Positions 54,286 to 64,000 of a stretch of 64,000 bases of DNA are shown piece by piece. Position 1 is the stretch's first letter, and the number at the start of each line of letters is the position of its first letter. The notes under the pieces are model-generated. The model saw only the letters and a program-made list of their open reading frames with translations. It ran no database searches and was not told the origin of the DNA. The stretch lies in the NCBI RefSeq assembly GCF_900163625.1, contig NZ_FUIE01000065.1, forward strand, positions 1 to 64,000, read 5' to 3'. This stretch comes from Brevundimonas diminuta 3F5N (GTDB lineage: Bacteria; Pseudomonadota; Alphaproteobacteria; Caulobacterales; Caulobacteraceae). A program made the position numbers and the translations under genes.

Positions 54286-55286
54286 CCGACGCCCCCCTGC
54301 TGAAAAGCCAACGCTTCCGCCAGGCGCGCGAAGACGACTGGCGCCGCCTGGAACGGTTGATGGACAAGGCCGAAAAGGGCTCGGCGTCCAAACTGACTGA
54401 CGAAGAGATTCTGGCCGTGCCGGTGCTGTACCGCTCGACCCTGTCGGCCCTGTCGGTGGCGCGCGAGACGTCGTTGGACCAGGGGCTAATCGACTATCTG
54501 GAGACGCTGTCGGCGCGAGCCTACTTCTTCGTCTACGGCTCGCGGGCGACGCTGCGCGACCGGCTGACCGCCTTCTTCCGCCATGACTGGCCCGCCTCGG
54601 TCAAAGGCCTGTGGCGCGAGACCCTGGTGTCCGCCGCCCTGATGCTGCTGGGCGCCGTGGTCGGCGGCTGGCTGGTGATGCACGATCCCGAGTGGTTCTA
54701 CGCCTTTGTGCCGGGCGACCTGTCCGGAGGCCGCGATCCGGGCGCCTCGACCGCGACCTTGCGCGCCACGCTGGACGGGACCGAGAACGCCGACGGCCTG
54801 TCGGTGTTCGCGGCCTTCCTGTTCACCCACAACGCCAAGGTCGCCCTGTTCGCCTTTGCGCTGGGCTTCGCCCTGTGTCTGCCGACCGGACTGCTGATCC
54901 TCTACAACGGCGCGACGCTGGGCGCCTTCTTCGCCCTGTTCGCCAGCCGCGGCCTGGGGGTCGAGCTGGGCGGCTGGCTGCTGATCCACGGCGTGACCGA
55001 GCTGTTCGCCGTCATCCTGGCCGGCGCCGCGGGTCTGAAGATCGGCTGGGCCGTCGCCTTCCCCGGCCGGGCGCACCGACTGGACGCCGCCGTTCAAGCC
55101 GGACGAACCGCAGGCGTGGTCATGGGCGGGGTCATCGTCATGCTGCTGCTCGCCGGTTTGCTGGAGGGCTTCGGGCGGCAACTGATCGCCGACACCGGCC
55201 TGCGCTACGCCGTGGCGGGCGTGACGGCCCTGATCTGGGGGCTCTACTTCTATGGTCCGAGACGGGAGGCGTCTCGTGTCCGCTGA
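54282..55286 (+). CDS. SpoIIM/DUF95-family membrane protein
   Basis: A 334-residue integral membrane protein starting at GTG that overlaps DUF58 (GTGA). The N-terminal 100 residues are soluble and helical (ARQAREDDWRRLERLMDKAE, YLETLSARAYFFVYGS). Six or so transmembrane segments follow (LVSAALMLLGAVVGGWLVM, VALFAFALGFALCLPTGLLI, GVVMGGVIVMLLLAGLLEGF). SpoIIM in Bacillus is needed for engulfment. Relatives in Gram-negative bacteria occur in MoxR operons with no known role; no sporulation is implied here. Confidence 0.9.
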   Translation: MTDAPLLKSQRFRQAREDDWRRLERLMDKAEKGSASKLTDEEILAVPVLYRSTLSALSVARETSLDQGLIDYLETLSARAYFFVYGSRATLRDRLTAFFRHDWPASVKGLWRETLVSAALMLLGAVVGGWLVMHDPEWFYAFVPGDLSGGRDPGASTATLRATLDGTENADGLSVFAAFLFTHNAKVALFAFALGFALCLPTGLLILYNGATLGAFFALFASRGLGVELGGWLLIHGVTELFAVILAGAAGLKIGWAVAFPGRAHRLDAAVQAGRTAGVVMGGVIVMLLLAGLLEGFGRQLIADTGLRYAVAGVTALIWGLYFYGPRREASRVR

Positions 55287-56157
55287 CGCCGCGAAGATCG
55301 ACAAGACCGAGCGCCCCTTCATCACGCCCGAGGGCGTCGACCTGCGGCTGAACATCGGCGACGCGGGGCAAAGGGCGGCGGCCTTCCTGCTGGACGCCGG
55401 AATCATCATCGGCGTGCTGATCGCCTTCACCCTGGCCCTGATCTTCACCGGCGTCGGCGCCATAGGCGCAGCCGGGCAGGCGGGCGCGGAACTGGTCGCG
55501 GTGCTGTGGCTGGTGGTCTTCTTCCTGCTGAGGAACTTCTACTTCACCGCTTTCGAGCTGTCGGCCGCCGCCGCCACGCCCGGCAAACGGGCGATGGGCC
55601 TGCGCGTCGCCTCACGCGACGGCGGGCGGCTGCGGGCGGAATCGGTGTTCGCACGCAACGCCATGCGCGAGCTGGAGGTCTTCCTGCCGCTGTCGCTTCT
55701 GGTGACGCAGGCGGGTCAGGGCGGGGTCGACAGCTGGATGTATCTGCTGGCCTTCGTCTGGGCGGCGATCTTCGTCTTCTTCCCCCTGTTCAATCGGGAC
55801 CGGTTGCGCCTGGGCGACCTGGTCGGCGGCACCTGGGTGGTGCGCACCCCACGCCGCAAGCTGACCCGCGACATGGCCGACGACGGGTCGGAACAACTGG
55901 CGAGGTATGACTTCACCCTGGCGCAGTTGGACGCCTATGGGGCCAAGGAGCTGCACGTTCTGGAATCCGTCCTGCGCACCGGCGAGCGCAAGACCATGCG
56001 CGCCGTCGCCGACCGCATCATGGTGAAAATCGGATGGTCGCGCGATCCACACCAGACCGACCGCGACTTCCTCAGCGCCTATTACGCCGCCGTGCGTGGG
56101 CGGCTGGAGCAGAAGCTGCTGATGGGCGTGCGGCGTCGCGACAAGCACGACGTCTGA
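55276..56157 (+). CDS. RDD-family membrane protein with C-terminal extension
   Basis: A 293-residue protein with the RDD domain at about 35-190. It has the R and D pair around AGQRAAAFLLDAGIIIGVLI and LRLGDLVGGTWVV, plus GKRAMGLRVASRDG. Three transmembrane segments are visible. The last 90 residues (FTLAQLDAYGAKELHVLESV, RAVADRIMVKIGWSRDP) form a soluble extension, as in homologues of this operon. The best start is the GTG at 55276, which has GGGAGG eight bases before and overlaps the SpoIIM gene by 11 bases. It ends the operon. Confidence 0.88.
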   Translation: MSADAAKIDKTERPFITPEGVDLRLNIGDAGQRAAAFLLDAGIIIGVLIAFTLALIFTGVGAIGAAGQAGAELVAVLWLVVFFLLRNFYFTAFELSAAAATPGKRAMGLRVASRDGGRLRAESVFARNAMRELEVFLPLSLLVTQAGQGGVDSWMYLLAFVWAAIFVFFPLFNRDRLRLGDLVGGTWVVRTPRRKLTRDMADDGSEQLARYDFTLAQLDAYGAKELHVLESVLRTGERKTMRAVADRIMVKIGWSRDPHQTDRDFLSAYYAAVRGRLEQKLLMGVRRRDKHDV

Positions 56158-56170
56158 CGCCGCGGCCCCA

Positions 56171-57142
56171 TCAGTCGAAGACGGCGGCCAGGGCCTCAGG
56201 CCCCGCACCTTCCTTGACGGTCCGCAGTTCGTAATAGAGCGCCGCCACCCCGGCCGAAGCGACCACCGCCGACAGGATGTTGACCACCACGCCGGACGCC
56301 GCATTGACCCACAGATTCGGACTGCCGTCGAAGAAGCCGCCGCCGGTCGCCAGACCGAGCGCGCCGACCGCCGCCCCGATGATCCACGACAGGATCACAT
56401 AGATGACCATCAGGCCGAACACGTTCCAGCGATAGCCGCGCGTCAGATCGCGACTGCGTTGCAGGCTCTCTAACACGCCCCTCTTCTCGACCACCACGGC
56501 GGGCGAGGCGACCGACCACATCACCGAAAGGATCACGCCGGGCACGATCAGGGCCAGATAGCCCAGTCCCGCGCCCAGGGCGGCGATGATGGCCAGCCCC
56601 AGCAGCGGCAGAAACATCTTCACGCCGACATCGAACGCCTGGCCAAAGGAGGTCGTCTTGCCGTTGAAGCCGTTGACCGCAGCCTTCATGACCATGCCCT
56701 GAAGCATGTAAAGGCCCACCAGATAGAACACCCAGCCCGCCGCCATCGTCAGGAATCCGACGGCGGCGCCGCCGGTGACGGCCGTGCTCTGGCCCAGGCC
56801 CATGACGGCGCTGGGCGCCCCGACCATGACCGTCGCCGCGCCGAAAAAGATCGCTGCGTTTTCGCGAATGGTCGTGAAGGTGCGCTGGATCACCCGACCG
56901 AGGTCGAACTGGCCGCCCCGGCTGGCGGCCTGCCCCGTCCAGGTCGGCGGGGCGACCGCCTGAAGCACGAAGATCTCGGTCGCCTGCAGATCCGCGCCGG
57001 GGACGAAATCGACCTTCTGCCCGCGCGTTAGCGGCAAGGATGTCCGCACCTGCGTGACATTGAACAGATAGCGCGCCGTATCATCGCCCAGGATCGCGCC
57101 CATCCCGGTCGCCTGATCGAATGTAAGAATCTCGCCACGCAT
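56171..57142 (-). CDS. Cold-shock-like domain fused to multi-pass membrane domain
   Basis: A 323-residue protein joining two usually separate modules. Residues 1-70 look like a cold-shock/OB domain (MRGEILTFDQATGMGAILGD, ARYLFNVTQVRTSLPLTRGQ, VDFVPGADLQATEIFVL). The rest is a membrane domain of about six segments (AAIFFGAATVMVGAPSAVMG, LTMAAGWVFYLVGLYML, LPLLGLAIIAALGAGLGYLA, VNILSAVVASAGVAALYYEL). That domain resembles the YciC/glycerophosphodiesterase-type membrane domain, with SLQRSRDLTRGYRWNVFGLM as a landmark. The start at 57142 begins the OB domain exactly. It converges with the MoxR operon. Function unknown; RNA or ligand sensing at the membrane is speculative. Confidence 0.75.
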   Translation of the reverse strand: MRGEILTFDQATGMGAILGDDTARYLFNVTQVRTSLPLTRGQKVDFVPGADLQATEIFVLQAVAPPTWTGQAASRGGQFDLGRVIQRTFTTIRENAAIFFGAATVMVGAPSAVMGLGQSTAVTGGAAVGFLTMAAGWVFYLVGLYMLQGMVMKAAVNGFNGKTTSFGQAFDVGVKMFLPLLGLAIIAALGAGLGYLALIVPGVILSVMWSVASPAVVVEKRGVLESLQRSRDLTRGYRWNVFGLMVIYVILSWIIGAAVGALGLATGGGFFDGSPNLWVNAASGVVVNILSAVVASAGVAALYYELRTVKEGAGPEALAAVFD

Positions 57143-57343
57143 GATCGTCCCCCAGTGCTCCCATGTAGGGCTACTGGGACTGCGCCGGATTGACCAGAGC
57201 GACGACCGATGAATTTCAGAACGCTCGGCTTCCCAGGCCCCCATCAACCGGGGTCGCCCTCATCTTCAGCCCATGAAGCCGGCGCCTCCTGCGTCTGACG
57301 TCATGCCCTCCTAGCTTCGGCCCATCAGGGGATCGGACACGCC

Positions 57344-57621
57344 GTGCCTGCCCGTCTCGATGCGTCCGGCCAGGCGACGCTCAAAGCCGCGCTCAGCGGT
57401 GAAGGTCAGCCCCGCTGCCCTGCAGCCGCCACGTCTGGGTGCGCTGCGCCCCTAGACGCCATCGGTCGCGCCAACGCCCTCACCCCAATCTCCATCATCC
57501 TGCCCTGCCACCACGTCATTGCGGCCGATGGAAGCATGACGGGCTACAGCGCCGGACTCTGCTGACGCTGGACGCCGCCGCAGCTCTGGCGCCGGTTCCA
57601 CCTCCCGGCCTTCGGCGCTAG
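57344..57621 (+). pseudogene. Remnant of an O6-alkylguanine-DNA alkyltransferase (Ogt-like)
   Basis: A 73-codon frame contains the active-site neighbourhood of the methylated-DNA-protein-cysteine methyltransferase family: DAIGRANALTPISIILPC, then HHVIAADGSMTGYSAGL. The catalytic Cys is present, but the invariant PCHR motif reads PCHH. The N-terminal domain and DNA-binding helix are missing or unrecognisable, and a stop follows GLC, with LLTLDAAAAL continuing in another frame. The gene is clearly decayed and not functional. Confidence 0.7.
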
Positions 57622-57654
57622 TGTCGCAGCCGAACCGCAACTGGATCCGCTTTC

Positions 57655-58269
57655 ATGACCACCCTTTACTTCGCTCCAGGCGCCTGCTCGCTGGCTCCGC
57701 ATATCGTTCTGGAATGGATAGGCGCGCCCTATTCGGCGGTGAAAGTGGGCTATGGCTCGCCCGAACTGCTGGCCGTGAACCCGGCCGGCGCGGTGCCGAC
57801 GCTGATCGAGGACGATGGCTGGCTGCTGACCCAGGCTGGAGCCGTTCTGGACTACCTCGCCGCCAAGCACCCCGAGGCGGACCTGGCCGGCGGCCACAGC
57901 CTGCGCGAAGTCGCTGAATCCCACCGCTGGTCGTCCTTCTTCACGGGCGACCTTCACCCGGCCTTCTTCCCGGTCTTCATGCCCTACCGCTACACCACCG
58001 GCGGCGAGGCTGAACGCGCGCAAGCGGTAGAGGCCGGCCACGCCCTGGTGCGCAAGCAACTGACGATCCTGAACAACCACCTGACCGATAAGGAATGGGT
58101 GCTGGGCCGCCGTTCGGTGATCGACGCCTATGCCTTCCCGATGATCCGCTGGGCCATCGCGCGCGTCCCAGGCGGATTGGCCGACTTCCCACACGTCCAG
58201 GCTCTGCACGATCGCCTGGCCGCCGACCCCGCCGTTCAGAAGGTTCTGGCCGACGAGGCCGCTGCGTGA
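57655..58269 (+). CDS. Glutathione S-transferase (beta-class-like)
   Basis: A 204-residue cytosolic GST. The thioredoxin-like N-terminal domain begins MTTLYFAPGACSLAPHIVLE, with the APGACSLAPHI signature of bacterial beta-class GSTs and a likely catalytic Cys. VNPAGAVPTLIEDDGWLLTQ carries the cis-Pro and the Ser/Gln glutathione contacts. The helical C-terminal domain follows (LRKQLTILNNHLTDKEWVLG, VIDAYAFPMIRWAI). Conjugates glutathione to electrophiles or acts as a reductase. Its TGA overlaps the GTG start of the dioxygenase-hydrolase gene (GTGA), so the two act together. Confidence 0.92.
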   Translation: MTTLYFAPGACSLAPHIVLEWIGAPYSAVKVGYGSPELLAVNPAGAVPTLIEDDGWLLTQAGAVLDYLAAKHPEADLAGGHSLREVAESHRWSSFFTGDLHPAFFPVFMPYRYTTGGEAERAQAVEAGHALVRKQLTILNNHLTDKEWVLGRRSVIDAYAFPMIRWAIARVPGGLADFPHVQALHDRLAADPAVQKVLADEAAA

Positions 58270-59795
58270 CCACGGGCCTGCACCACGTCACCGCCATCAC
58301 CGCGTGCGTCCAGGCCAATGTCGACTTCTATGTCGGCTTTCTGGGGTTGAAACTGATCAAGCGAACCGGCGGCTATGAAGACGCTGAACAGCTTCACCTC
58401 TTCTATGGCGACGCCGTCGGCAGCCCCGGCAGCGTCGTCACCTTCCTGGTCTGGGAAGCCGGCGCTTCGGGCCGCGTCGGCCATGGCCTGGCGGCCGAGA
58501 TCGCCTTCGCCGTGCCGGCCGCCAGCATCGGCGACTGGCTGACTCGCGCCATGAGCGCCCGCATCCCTGTCGAAGGCCCGACGCGCGAGTTCGGCGAGCC
58601 GGTGCTGAGGCTGAAAGACCCGGACGGCGTCATCATCAAGCTAGTGGGCGCCGCCCTGCCCGCCGCCGCGCCCCTGGCCGATCCGATCGCGCCGACGCGT
58701 CTGCGCGCCGTTACCCTGTTCACCGAAAAACCGGAAGAGACCGCCGACTTCGTGGCCCGTTTCGGCTACCGCCGCGGCCCGGTCGAGGGCGCCGTCCAGC
58801 GCATGATCTCGGACACGGATGTCGTCGATGTGCGCGCCGTCACCGGCTATGTGCCGGGCGTTCCGGGCGCTGGAACCATCGACCACACCGCCTTCCGCGC
58901 GCCGGACGTGGACGCCGTTCGCGCCATGCGCCTGTCGCTGGGCAAGGCCAACGGCGTCACCAACGTCCATGACCGGCAGTATTTCCTCTCGCTATATGTC
59001 CGCGACCCGGCCGGTCTGTTGATGGAATACGCCACCGACGCCCCCGGCTACACGGCCGACGAACCGCTGGAGACTTTGGGCGAGGCCCTGCTCATGCCGC
59101 CCGGCGACGCCGCGCGCGCCGAAGACCTGAAGGTCATGCTGCCGCAGTTCGCCTTGCCGGGAGAACCGCGCCCGCCGCACCGAGACCTGCCCTTCGTACA
59201 CCGCTTTCACACGCCCGAAGATCCCGACGGTTCGGTGATCGTCCTGCTGCATGGCACGGGCGGCAATGAAGCGGACTTGATGCCGCTGGCCCATCGGCTG
59301 AACCCGCGCGCCACCCTTCTGGGCGTGCGCGGCCGCGCGACCGAGGAAGGCGTCAACCGCTGGTTCCGGCGCTTCGAGCCGACTCGCTACGACCAGGCTG
59401 ACATCCGCGCGGAGGCCGGAGCCTTTGTCGCCTTCGTCGACGGCGCCGTCAGCGGCTATGGCCTGGATGCCGACCGCCTGACGTTCCTCGGCTTCTCCAA
59501 CGGGGCCAACCTGCTGGGCGCCATCCTGCAACTGCACCCCGGCCTCGTTCGCCGCGCCATTCTGATCCGCGCCATTCAGGTGTTGGAGGCGGCCCCGGCG
59601 GCGGACCTGGCCGGAGCCCGTGTGCTGCTGTTGACCGGCGCGCGCGATCCCTTCGCCGAAATGGCCGCGGGGCTGGAGACCGCCTTGCGCCAGGATGGAG
59701 CCGAACTCGACGCCCGCATCATCGAAGCCAATCATGCTCTGGCTCCAGATGACCTCGTCGCCGCGCGGGATTGGCTTTCGACCTTCGCGCCCTGA
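58266..59795 (+). CDS. Fused ring-cleaving dioxygenase (MhqO-like) and serine hydrolase (MhqD-like)
   Basis: A 509-residue two-domain enzyme starting at GTG in the GST stop. Residues 1 to about 290 are two VOC modules of the MhqO/PcpA type, with metal-ligand candidates His in TTGLHHVTAITACV, His in GTIDHTAFRAPD and Glu in AGLLMEYATDAPG. Residues from about 310 on are an alpha/beta hydrolase of the MhqD/phospholipase-carboxylesterase type: VIVLLHGTGGNEADLMPL, nucleophile Ser in LTFLGFSNGANLL, Asp in LTGARDPF, His in ANHALAPDD. In Bacillus these are separate genes (mhqO, mhqD) induced by hydroquinones. Here they form one protein. Role inferred: opening and hydrolysing quinone-derived rings. Confidence 0.85.
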   Translation: MTTGLHHVTAITACVQANVDFYVGFLGLKLIKRTGGYEDAEQLHLFYGDAVGSPGSVVTFLVWEAGASGRVGHGLAAEIAFAVPAASIGDWLTRAMSARIPVEGPTREFGEPVLRLKDPDGVIIKLVGAALPAAAPLADPIAPTRLRAVTLFTEKPEETADFVARFGYRRGPVEGAVQRMISDTDVVDVRAVTGYVPGVPGAGTIDHTAFRAPDVDAVRAMRLSLGKANGVTNVHDRQYFLSLYVRDPAGLLMEYATDAPGYTADEPLETLGEALLMPPGDAARAEDLKVMLPQFALPGEPRPPHRDLPFVHRFHTPEDPDGSVIVLLHGTGGNEADLMPLAHRLNPRATLLGVRGRATEEGVNRWFRRFEPTRYDQADIRAEAGAFVAFVDGAVSGYGLDADRLTFLGFSNGANLLGAILQLHPGLVRRAILIRAIQVLEAAPAADLAGARVLLLTGARDPFAEMAAGLETALRQDGAELDARIIEANHALAPDDLVAARDWLSTFAP

Positions 59796-59902
59796 TGACG
59801 GCCCTCGGGCCAGACAAAAGGCCAGAGCGTCGGAAAGCATTGTCGTCGAAATCTGGACCTGCTACTTGTGAAGCGTCCAGTTGTTCTTGGGAAAAGGAGG
59901 GC

Positions 59903-59968
59903 ATGATGATCGACAAGACCACGCCCGCCTGCGGGTTCCCGATGGTCTTCGGCCGCCGCGGCCGCTGA
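59903..59968 (+). CDS. Candidate 21-residue leader peptide ORF
   Basis: This short ORF starts MMIDKTTPACGFPMV and ends FGRRGR, stop. It has the strongest ribosome site in the region (AAAAGGAGGGC), 85 bases upstream of the ABC exporter start. A terminator-like hairpin sits between them. The peptide ends in Arg-Arg-Gly-Arg, containing the R-x-R pattern seen in macrolide-arrest leader peptides, and has no run of one amino acid as in biosynthetic leaders. A second stem (GCCGC/GCGGC) spans its stop region (59961-59983) and could respond to ribosome stalling. It may also be a free-standing small protein or not translated at all. Confidence 0.5.
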   Translation: MMIDKTTPACGFPMVFGRRGR

Positions 59969-60023
59969 CGCCCCCCTTGCGGCTCTGTGTTGAGCTGCTC
60001 CCCTGATCGTTGCTGACACAAGG

Positions 60024-60050
60024 ACCGCGCGGATCTGCGCGGTTGTTCTT
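60024..60050 (+). terminator. Terminator-like hairpin directly before ABC exporter start
   Basis: A perfect 7-bp stem (ACCGCGC/GCGCGGT, loop GGATCT) is followed by TGTTCTTTT. The exporter ATG is at 60054, so transcripts from upstream must pass this element to express it. It could be the terminator of the hydrolase fusion gene or an attenuator. No ribosome site other than AAGGA at the stem base is visible for the exporter. Confidence 0.6.
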
Positions 60051-60053
60051 TTC

Positions 60054-61847
<1,794 letters not shown>

Positions 61848-62012
61848 GACAAGGCGACGAGGGCGAGATTTCACCAGACGCCCGACGTTTGTCGGAGAGC
61901 ATCAGGCCCCGCAGTCTCGGCTGTGGGGCCGCACCTACCCAAAGACTCTCTGTTCCCTTCCCGCTCCGCCTGCTACATAGATTTCGACGGTATGCGGAAG
62001 GAATGAAACGCG

Positions 62013-64000
62013 TTGAAAAACAAGCTAATGCTGACCACTTTGGCCTGGTTTTTGAGCACCTCCGCCATGGCTGGCGACACGATCTTGCGCGGCCCAGCGC
62101 CCGACTGGATTCCGGCCGTAACCCCGCATTTGTCCAACAGGCCGGACAACCCCTCTCAACATGTCCGCTATGAAGTGGTCGAGCGCCATGTGCGCGCCTT
62201 CGGCGATCATACCGAAACCTATGTCCGCATGCGGCTGCGGGTGCTGTCGCCCCTGGGTCTGCAACAGGCTTCGCAGTTGGGGGTGGAATGGAACCCGGCC
62301 TTGCAGACGCCGACCGTCCACCACGCCCGCATCATCCGCGCAGGCGAAACCACCGACATTCTGGACAAGGCCGACTTCACCATACTCCGTCGCGAAACGG
62401 CGCTGGAGCAATCGCTACAGATCAATGGCGTCCTGACGGGCGTCCTGGTGAACCCCGACATCCGCGTCGGCGACACCATCGACTTTGCCTATTCCTTCCG
62501 CACGCAGTTCGACGTCTTCAACAACCCGCTCGAAACGCTGGCCTATTCCCACTCCCCGCTTCCTCTGGATCTGGGCGCGACGACGATCAGTTGGCCGGCG
62601 TCAATGAACGTGCAGACCCGCGCCGGGCGCCACGCCGTCCTTCCTCCGATCACCGAAGAGGGCGACTTCAAAGTCCTGAGCAATCGCGTGACCGACGCTG
62701 AGGGAGAAATCTATCCAGACACCCTCGCCCCCCGCTCCTATCCCAACTACGGCTGGCAGATCAGCAGCATCCCACAATGGGGGATGATCGCGGACCACAT
62801 TCGCGCCTCCTTTGATCAAGCTAGCGCCCTACCCGATGCCGCCGATATGGCCGCGCACGTTGCGCGAATAAAATCCGAGCACGTCACCCCGGAAGCCCGC
62901 GCTTTAGCGGCGCTGCGGCTGGTTCAGGACGAGGTGCGCTACATGGCCCTGACGCTCGGCGAGGGCGGTTGGCTGCCGGTCTCAGCCGGCGAAGTCTGGG
63001 CAAAGCGGCAAGGCGACTGCAAGGGCAAGACCGTGCTTCTGGTCGCCCTGCTGAGAGAGTTGGGGATCGACGCGGTCCCGGTGCTGGTGTCTTCGGAAAA
63101 CCTGCCCCTCGATAGATATCTGCCAATGGTCAGTGCATTCGACCATGTGATCGTGAAGGCCCGCATCAATGGGGAGACCTATCTGATGGATGGGGCGCGT
63201 ATCGGCGATCGTAGCCTGACGCCGGACCGTCCTCTGGTTCACGAATATGTTCTGCCCATCGTGGAGCGCGCCCGCCTGGAGCAGATCCCACTCAAACTGC
63301 CCCCCCGTCCGACCGGCGCGCTGCATGTTGAGATCGACTTTTCCGACGGCGTCTACGGCCCTGCAAGGGTGACGCTGACCGATATCGAGCGTGGCCACAG
63401 CGCCACTGAAATGCAGGCTGGCGTAGCTCAGGTTCCCGCCGCCGAACTGACCCGCCTGTATGACCAACGCTGGAACAACTTCCTGAAGGATTACGGCCAG
63501 GTTTCGGACATCAAGAGCCGGTGGGAGTACCGCGAGGACACCCACGAGTTTGTCGCCAGTGCGACAGCTCGCGTCGCCTTCGACTGGAGCGGCGGCCCCG
63601 TCGAAATCCCCTTGGCTCACGTCACCTGGAAAGGTTTTGAGCTGCATAAGGACGAGAGATTCAAGGACGCCGATTACGGCAAGAAATTCCCCAGTTCGTC
63701 CTCATTCCGCACCACCGTCATCGTGCCTGAAGGCGAGGATGTCCTTGACCTGTCGGTCCAGCCCTATGAGGTCGAGGCTGGCGCGACCCGCTACTTCCGC
63801 ACCGTCCAACGCGACGGCAATCGGCTGGAGACCGATCGTGGCTCGATCACTCTTCGCCCCTACGCCACAGCGGCGGAGGTCCAGGCCGAACAGGCGGGCA
63901 TGGACAGCTTCAAAGACCTGAAGGCCACCATGCAGGTGAAGCGAGGCTACACCCTGACGGCAGCTGACCGACAGACGCTGACGACAGCCCCCGAGGGCGA
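62013..64000 (+). CDS. DUF3857/transglutaminase-like protein (partial, runs off the window)
   Basis: More than 660 codons of an open frame that continues past the window end. The best start is TTG at 62013, with GGAAGGAATG upstream, giving a signal peptide (KNKLMLTTLAWFLSTSAMA); an ATG at 62028 is an alternative. The DUF3857 domain comes first (VRYEVVERHVRAFGDHTET, LGVEWNPALQTPTVHHARII). A transglutaminase-like core follows, with Cys in KRQGDCKGKTVLLVAL, His in VSAFDHVIVKARI and Asp in YLMDGARIG. Such exported proteins act in the periplasm on unknown substrates. The gene is separated from the exporter by 165 bases with its own likely promoter. Confidence 0.82.
   Translation, partial: MKNKLMLTTLAWFLSTSAMAGDTILRGPAPDWIPAVTPHLSNRPDNPSQHVRYEVVERHVRAFGDHTETYVRMRLRVLSPLGLQQASQLGVEWNPALQTPTVHHARIIRAGETTDILDKADFTILRRETALEQSLQINGVLTGVLVNPDIRVGDTIDFAYSFRTQFDVFNNPLETLAYSHSPLPLDLGATTISWPASMNVQTRAGRHAVLPPITEEGDFKVLSNRVTDAEGEIYPDTLAPRSYPNYGWQISSIPQWGMIADHIRASFDQASALPDAADMAAHVARIKSEHVTPEARALAALRLVQDEVRYMALTLGEGGWLPVSAGEVWAKRQGDCKGKTVLLVALLRELGIDAVPVLVSSENLPLDRYLPMVSAFDHVIVKARINGETYLMDGARIGDRSLTPDRPLVHEYVLPIVERARLEQIPLKLPPRPTGALHVEIDFSDGVYGPARVTLTDIERGHSATEMQAGVAQVPAAELTRLYDQRWNNFLKDYGQVSDIKSRWEYREDTHEFVASATARVAFDWSGGPVEIPLAHVTWKGFELHKDERFKDADYGKKFPSSSSFRTTVIVPEGEDVLDLSVQPYEVEAGATRYFRTVQRDGNRLETDRGSITLRPYATAAEVQAEQAGMDSFKDLKATMQVKRGYTLTAADRQTLTTAPEG

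Follow-up and report, generated by a model that had tools for sequence, protein, structure and literature searches.

In TnaC, arrest of the ribosome at the stop codon of the leader masks a rut site just downstream (PMC8429421). Rho termination is also the proposed outcome of repressed translation at toiL of topAI-yjhQ in E. coli (PMC12121999). Arrest on MsrDL prevents the accommodation of release factors (PMC10314930). Expression of bmrB-bmrCD in Bacillus subtilis is antibiotic-induced, and translation of the leader is required (PMC4191407). Genes 38 and 25 of phage T4 have Shine-Dalgarno (SD) sequences 22 and 27 nt from the AUG, distances that a hairpin shortens to 5 and 11 nt, respectively (PMC3014915). 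For the Alphaproteobacteria, an ilvBN leader attenuator is cited for Caulobacter crescentus (PMC4117421), and a small-protein study of Sinorhizobium meliloti reported eleven novel sORFs in 5'-UTRs (PMC10117765).

Here we describe a short leader ORF and an ABC exporter gene in a stretch of 64,000 nucleotides from Brevundimonas diminuta 3F5N (contig NZ_FUIE01000065.1, positions 1 to 64,000; hereafter, the window). The first-pass annotation of the window stated that its author knew of no described leader-peptide attenuator of this kind in Caulobacterales. Leader attenuators as such are known there (ilvBN), but the present kind was not found in literature searches. Within the limited holdings searched, neither a leader ahead of this exporter family nor a hairpin-bridged ribosome-binding site (RBS) in a bacterial exporter turned up.

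The exporter and its leader in the window

The exporter is encoded at 60054..61847 (forward strand, as are all features below). Domain matches (PF00664 and PF00005) identify it as a half-transporter of 597 aa. It reaches the curated cut-off of none of the best 25 of 187 NCBIfam models, and the 60 PDB sequence matches listed span ABCB proteins of plants and animals as well as SAV1866 and Atm1-type exporters. These matches place it in no specific family.

The leader ORF, MMIDKTTPACGFPMVFGRRGR, was read directly at 59903..59968, with an ATG at 59903, a second ATG at 59906 and a TGA at 59966-59968. Its SD (AAAAGGAGG, 59892..59900) has a duplex energy of -12.3 for the second ATG and -7.7 for the first. 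Because of this better energy, and because it fits the start in relatives, 59906 is the more likely start. Thus, the frame reported in the first-pass annotation is correct, but its length is probably 20 rather than 21 codons. The ribosome site of the ORF, which was ranked best in the region, is present, very strong, and kept in relatives.

Directly 5' of the leader, a promoter-like element (TTGTCG-17-TACTTG, 59840..59868) was picked by eye, and TGCTAC occurs at 59860, at -46 relative to the leader ATG. We found no sigma-70 consensus site at this element. One -10-like pattern, 25-60 nt 5' of the leader ATG, was matched in 34/61 relatives, a count without a chance control for a pattern that was altered while counting was under way. 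Behind the leader stop are two hairpins, P1 (GCGGCTC/GAGCTGC, 59979..59998, z -2.2) and P2 (60024..60043), in agreement with the RNA structure that had been reported around and behind the stop. An Rfam 15 search of the window gave no match to a leader or attenuator family at the gathering score. Taken together, the sequence comparisons support the short ORF as a conserved leader ahead of the exporter, with a promoter-like element just upstream and RNA structure behind.

Further 5' of the exporter unit (58254-59795) is a 513-aa frame inside a longer ORF that begins at 58095. Its residues 8-128 are a glyoxalase domain and 323-506 an MhqD-like carboxylesterase region (below the model's cut-off), and the frame could possibly encode an MhqO/MhqD-like fusion.

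Distribution of the exporter

The exporter was identified (E<=1e-150) in 2/131 genomes of the genus, and these two also match the leader region at better than 1e-10. A genus-wide role for the leader was considered and rejected: 82/131 genomes match the 176-nt leader query at E<=0.01, but only the own genome and that of Brevundimonas sp. MYb52 do so at better than 1e-10. Among the 30 query loci listed, all others are short chance matches, mostly to an IGCDKTTPAC stretch. This stretch presumably belongs to a dehydratase-like protein, and two other chance loci to what we take to be a NusG-like reading frame.

Homology with MYb52 extends over 59838-61883 (91.7% identity) and begins at the promoter-like element. 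There is no match in the MYb52 flanks compared (55,001-64,000 of the window versus 7.8 kb). Since the conserved block ends at the flanks, the promoter-like element, leader and exporter seem to be mobile as a single unit. At the threshold used, no other of the 131 genus genomes has the exporter, and the block looks horizontally moved.

The next relatives are exporters of Sphingomonadales (79-83% identity), followed at 57-73% identity mostly by those of other Alphaproteobacteria, with two from Steroidobacter and one from a Bryobacteraceae MAG. Plasmid copies (50-82% identity) occur in Sphingomonas, Azospirillum, Skermanella, Sinorhizobium, Rhizobium, Burkholderia and others. Neighbouring genes of the exporter vary among annotated records. 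The first-pass annotation looked to Caulobacterales for conservation of the leader region. The exporter is confined to two of the genus genomes, but the layout is kept in orthologs elsewhere, mostly in Alphaproteobacteria.

Leaders among exporter orthologs

We called a leader in 61/74 orthologs with at least 55% identity (52 of an original 62 and 9 of 12 loci added later), where a leader is the ATG ORF with the best SD at a threshold of -6.8 or lower. A more stringent count, of a short ORF with an SD energy <= -10 in the 330 nt 5' of the exporter start, was positive for 41/62 orthologs (>=57% identity). The same count gave rates of 0.8% for dinucleotide shuffles (n = 1240) and 3.8% for other long ORFs (n = 494). 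It was positive for 2/174 non-overlapping long ORFs that were used as gene proxies in a repeat of the earlier controls. All control ORFs are mechanical calls rather than annotated genes, and the control sets of 494, 533 and 459 ORFs (the latter two are used below) include antisense ORFs.

Some of the called leaders have weak SDs (-6.9 to -8.1; L048, L062, L069, L146 and L161). No leader was called in 13/74 orthologs. One of these, L039, was removed by hand from the 61-row table because its ORF resembled the tail of an upstream gene, and nine further of the 62 orthologs have no ORF at the SD threshold. The 12 loci added later are plasmid loci, hand-picked from 185 records; L173 and L177 are without a leader, and L174 has a GTG ORF (-7.4) that was not counted. 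The partial matches L083, L105 and L107 were excluded from the 62 orthologs.

L039 itself (Croceibacterium mercuriale, 83% identity) apparently lies close behind another gene. It has no convincing leader, and a hairpin precedes its ATG.

The peptides of Brevundimonas and Sphingomonas are recognisably related. They share [TI]-D-[HK]-x-T-P-x-R and, after an intervening stretch, most commonly have FGRLGR or GGLLRH (the leader of the sister strain MYb52 is MMIDKTTPVRTFLKVFGRLGR). Other lineages share the layout only and have different peptides, for example in S. meliloti Rm41 (MQAFSSPYGADPRS), R. leguminosarum (MPAIIETFPCGMSRH), Ancylobacter (MTILFRLPVPAGMAHR) and B. cenocepacia (MFRMPATFPNVVSRRS). 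The start of the S. meliloti leader does not appear in the main text of the small-protein study (PMC10117765). The same layout (leader, spacer and folded start site) is kept in dozens of relatives despite differing sequences.

A hairpin-bridged start site

The exporter was reported to lack a clear ribosome site of its own in the first-pass annotation. This is contradicted by an SD-like AAGGA at 60020..60024, whose linear distance to the ATG is 29 nt. It is easily missed because P2 sits between AAGGA and ATG, with a T-rich stretch from the hairpin up to the exporter ATG at 60054. Absence of an SD would in any case prove little, because 75.4% of start sites in C. crescentus are without one (PMC4117421).

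An SD-like word (AAGG, GAGG, GGAG, AGGA, GGGA or GGGG) is at the foot of the hairpin in 48/61 orthologs; 13/61 orthologs with a leader lack the strict hairpin. The P2 stem is mostly 6-8 bp (41/48), and its 3' foot is 9 nt from the start codon in 24/48, 8 nt in 9 and 10 nt in 7. When the gap was left free (0-29 nt), a hairpin was identified in 50/61 orthologs, and 47/50 had gaps of 7-11 nt, compared with 19% of shuffled hits. Measured along the sequence, the distance from SD to start has a median of 28 nt (23-37, 48 rows). Measured through the hairpin, its mode is 9 nt, with 8-10 nt in 37/48. The complete SD-hairpin-start motif (score >=16) was found in 39/62 orthologs, compared with 0.68% of 6200 shuffles, 3/533 other long ORFs and 0/174 gene proxies. 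The start codons of the 62 orthologs were set by eye with the hairpins already in view, which may favour the counts of distance to the start.

P2 stems are GC-rich, differ among lineages and covary within each. In alignment A3 (Sphingomonas, Brevundimonas and Novosphingobium), 93.7% of positions are paired and the covariation score is 0.239 versus 0.168 in shuffled alignments (3/500). In the Sinorhizobium-centred alignment A4, 98.3% are paired and the score is 0.485 versus 0.199 (0/500), with compensatory stem pairs CCGGTG/CACCGG, CCGATG/CATCGG and CCAATG/CATTGG. The pair structures of both alignments were drawn after the alignments had been inspected. A3 has 14 rows (L039, L042, L043, L044 and the near-duplicate L156 were left out, and L047, L049 and L051 are incomplete). 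A4 has 10 chosen Rhizobiaceae and Brucellaceae rows, and does not include L171, L164 or L147-L150. For P2, then, the covariation in stems that the first-pass annotation named as a check was found.

A hairpin that hides the SD would be expected to include it. P2 instead adjoins the SD and its distance to the AUG is kept. The locus has the features of a split RBS, that is, a distant SD, a conserved hairpin between SD and start, and a near-optimal effective spacing. This comparative evidence indicates that P2 probably brings the exporter SD from about 28 to about 9 nt of the start codon.

P2 was also identified in two rows from Steroidobacter, which we take to be gammaproteobacteria. In Burkholderia copies, inspection by eye shows no more than a looser version. 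The 14 bases around the exporter SD (TGCTGACACAAGGA) occur in three places in the own genome at up to one mismatch. One of these (L002, 1501-1570, in C3 of the own genome) is 3' of an ORF and directly before a hairpin followed by TTTT. The ORF ahead of it presumably encodes a POT-family transporter, which it resembles.

The spacer behind the leader

The spacer between the leader stop and the exporter SD (59969..60018) is C-rich and G-poor in the window (C 0.38, G 0.26), and we consider it a candidate Rho-loading region. In comparisons, it was taken from the leader stop to 35 nt before the exporter start. Over 61 orthologs, spacers have C 0.393 and G 0.260, with C > G in 59/61 and C-G >= 0.08 in 48/61. 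The corresponding values are 52.7% and 18.5% for the upstream regions of 459 ORFs, and 49.4% and 18.4% for the 174 gene proxies. The region 5' of the leaders has C 0.318 and G 0.304 (53 rows). YC dimers number 4.67 per 20 nt in spacers versus 2.80 upstream of leaders. This composition resembles that of a Rho-loading region and hints at a possible role for Rho.

Folding directly behind the stop, of the P1 type, has a mean z of -0.85 over 71 leaders, with 31/71 below -1. Strong pairing between leader and spacer is limited to some rows (L147, z -6.6; L148, -4.0; L149, -3.9; mean over 71, -0.32). The leaders of L147-L149 are Rhizobium-like. Here the leader, the 5' arm and the 3' arm of the spacer (GGCCTG / CAGGCC / GGCCTG) could form mutually exclusive pairings, which is the layout of a classical attenuator.

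The end of the leader peptide

Among 32 peptide clusters, 55% have Arg or His as the last leader residue and 41% as the penultimate one (cluster-weighted). Thus, as in TnaC, conserved residues adjoin the stop codon. Without clustering, 39/60 distinct leaders end in R/H, and the last or penultimate residue is R/H in 49/60. The background in the exporters is 8.9% Arg and 2.2% His (~11%). In Novosphingobium, the last residue of four leaders is N, P, A or G.

Several Arg and His codons are in use, which points to the amino acids as what is kept. However, CGG is rare and CAC common at the terminal codons (5/56 Arg and 27/30 His codons) relative to the exporters (1277/3665 and 584/908), so part of the terminal conservation may be at the nucleotide level. 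For the seven Sphingomonas leaders compared, pN/pS is 0.69 across the whole ORF but 0.21 in its final six codons. It is not low in several other groups (1.4 overall for the Brevundimonas pair; 1.69 over the last six codons of four Rhizobium-like leaders), and the other groups are small and mostly without such constraint. The body of the leader is drifting while its end is kept. Conservation of the peptide in relatives, which was to be expected from the first-pass annotation, therefore holds for the ORF and its basic end but not for the body.

Arg/Lys-x-Arg/Lys is the arrest motif of Erm-type macrolide-sensing leader peptides, and the leader in the window, which ends in RGR, had been likened to these. 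The likeness does not extend to relatives: the sister strain ends in FGRLGR, and Sphingomonas leaders in GGLLRH or GGLLHH and variants, so that only the basic end is common.

More distant exporter paralogs of Caulobacteraceae (45-53% identity) often have a leader too. Eight of these leaders (L121, L122, L123, L126, L129, L133, L134 and L137, at 48-49% identity) have Pro-Pro-Pro plus a few residues at the end, and Pro-Pro-Pro is a motif that slows ribosomes. The bridged hairpin is absent from these eight and was identified in only 1/35 of the paralogs.

Proposed regulation and alternatives

The reading we favour, tentatively and at a little under an even chance, is a leader-peptide attenuator in which arrest near the leader stop would block Rho, ahead of an exporter RBS that, on comparative evidence, is bridged by a hairpin. 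One transcript would include the leader ORF, the C-rich spacer, the SD with its hairpin, and the exporter. By default, ribosomes would finish the leader and leave, Rho could load on the exposed spacer, and most transcripts would end before or early in the exporter. Upon induction, a ribosome would arrest at or near the leader stop, via an inhibitor or ligand acting with the nascent Arg/His end. It would cover the start of the spacer and prevent Rho loading, and the exporter would be transcribed and then translated from the bridged site. Overall, this would combine regulation of the TnaC or toiL uORF type with a ribosome site like that of T4 gene 25.

Translational attenuation is a less probable, though serious, alternative. 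Here the sequence after the stop would mask the exporter SD and the 5' arm of P2, and an arrested ribosome would free them so that the hairpin forms. The best complement to the SD and 5' arm does begin 2-3 nt after the stop in L041 (z -4.6), L052 (-1.5), L073 (-2.4), L045 (-1.5) and L156 (-1.6), and SD:anti-SD pairing has z < -1.5 in 10/48 orthologs versus > 1.5 in 1/48. With a ribosome placed at the leader stop, predicted P2 rises in L041 (0 to 0.89), L047 (0.22 to 0.88) and L050 (0.17 to 0.90). However, mean z is only -0.54, and other Sphingomonas rows are without signal (L070, 1.3; L050, 0.1; L046, -0.7). We rejected this pairing as a general switch, as it is convincing in a minority of orthologs only. 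Mean predicted P2 over 42 orthologs moves only from 0.63 without a ribosome to 0.71 stalled, and in the window P2 is predicted to be stable without one (0.91 naked, 0.75 stalled). Over the 42 orthologs and the window, folding with a ribosome at the leader stop gave no consistent change of SD or P2. For lack of a consistent folding switch, and because anti-SD pairing convinces in so few orthologs, we prefer the version with Rho. Rho attenuation and translational attenuation may both act, as was proposed for toiL. A mean predicted P2 of 0.63 without a ribosome, together with a peptide body that evolves freely in several lineages, would also fit a constitutive leader and a bridged RBS that form a mere unusual arrangement for expression, with no sensing. 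We consider this unlikely, as it leaves the C-terminal Arg/His bias and the C-rich spacer unexplained.

The model of the first-pass annotation, in which macrolide-type Arg-x-Arg arrest relieves an intrinsic terminator before the ATG, now appears improbable. RGR is present in the window, and P2 with its T-rich tail scores as a terminator there (the one such site found in 59780-60080); the hairpin of the sister strain passes the terminator test too, but its leader is without Arg-x-Arg. Across orthologs, the short leader ORF with its own SD before an ABC-type gene is found as such an attenuator would have it, but the terminator seems not to be conserved. Terminator-like hairpins occur in 11/61 orthologs versus 10% in shuffles, which is near chance, and 5/11 of these sites are P2 itself (those of the window and the sister strain included). 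We rejected an intrinsic terminator as the conserved element on the basis of this frequency, whereas P2 persists at a steady distance from the start, with an SD-like word at its foot. Least probable is classical attenuation of the amino-acid type, in which Arg/His supply is sensed via the last codons. Arg or His is at -1 and -2 in many clusters, but these codons often number just one or two and immediately precede the stop, Arg and His interchange between lineages, and the target is an exporter rather than a biosynthetic gene.

These loci could belong to a large undescribed class of bacterial switches, in which a nascent peptide with an Arg/His end arrests the ribosome at its own stop and, via the RNA that follows, decides the making or use of a bridged RBS on the mRNA of an ABC exporter. 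We regard this broader proposal as less likely than not. To our knowledge, hairpin-bridged ribosome sites are known mainly from phage T4, and if the proposal is true this would be the first bridged RBS kept in a cellular gene family and the first under regulation, as far as we know. Here such a site holds its position and shows covariation across the alphaproteobacterial members of an exporter family. Should the leader respond to compounds that target the ribosome, soil and plant-associated alphaproteobacteria would have an inducible pump. Both the arrest signal and the exporter substrate would then become testable in Sinorhizobium meliloti or Caulobacter.

Comparison with known systems

Residues adjoining the stop codon matter in TnaC and SpeFL, which the leaders described here resemble in this respect (PMC8429421). 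TnaC also has its Rho-loading region directly after the stop, the position taken here by the C-rich spacer, a candidate region of this kind. Unlike TnaC and SpeFL, which are linked to amino-acid catabolism (PMC8429421), the present leaders precede an exporter, and by eye there is no sequence relation. toiL shares a uORF, RNA structure around the downstream RBS and a link to Rho (which is conjectural here), but its structure hides the RBS (PMC12121999), whereas the hairpin here is beside the SD and its distance to the start codon is kept.

The far SD with a hairpin between SD and AUG is like that of T4 genes 38 and 25. Those are phage genes, for which we saw no mention of a leader peptide (PMC3014915); here the site belongs to exporter genes of many bacterial lineages and is preceded by a leader. 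MsrDL is likewise a leader before an ABC-type gene, the resistance gene msrD, but msrD encodes an ABC-F translation factor and not an exporter, and the terminator is Rho-independent (PMC10314930). Closest in its target is bmrB-bmrCD, where a short leader ORF is ahead of a multidrug ABC exporter. That system is from a Gram-positive organism, with a two-gene exporter and a leader ORF that contains stem-loops and an intrinsic terminator (PMC4191407), while in the present family terminators show no conservation and a hairpin bridges the exporter RBS. Given that leader-controlled ABC exporters are already known (bmrBCD; PMC4191407), what we rate as new is the conserved bridged RBS that appears to be coupled to such a leader.
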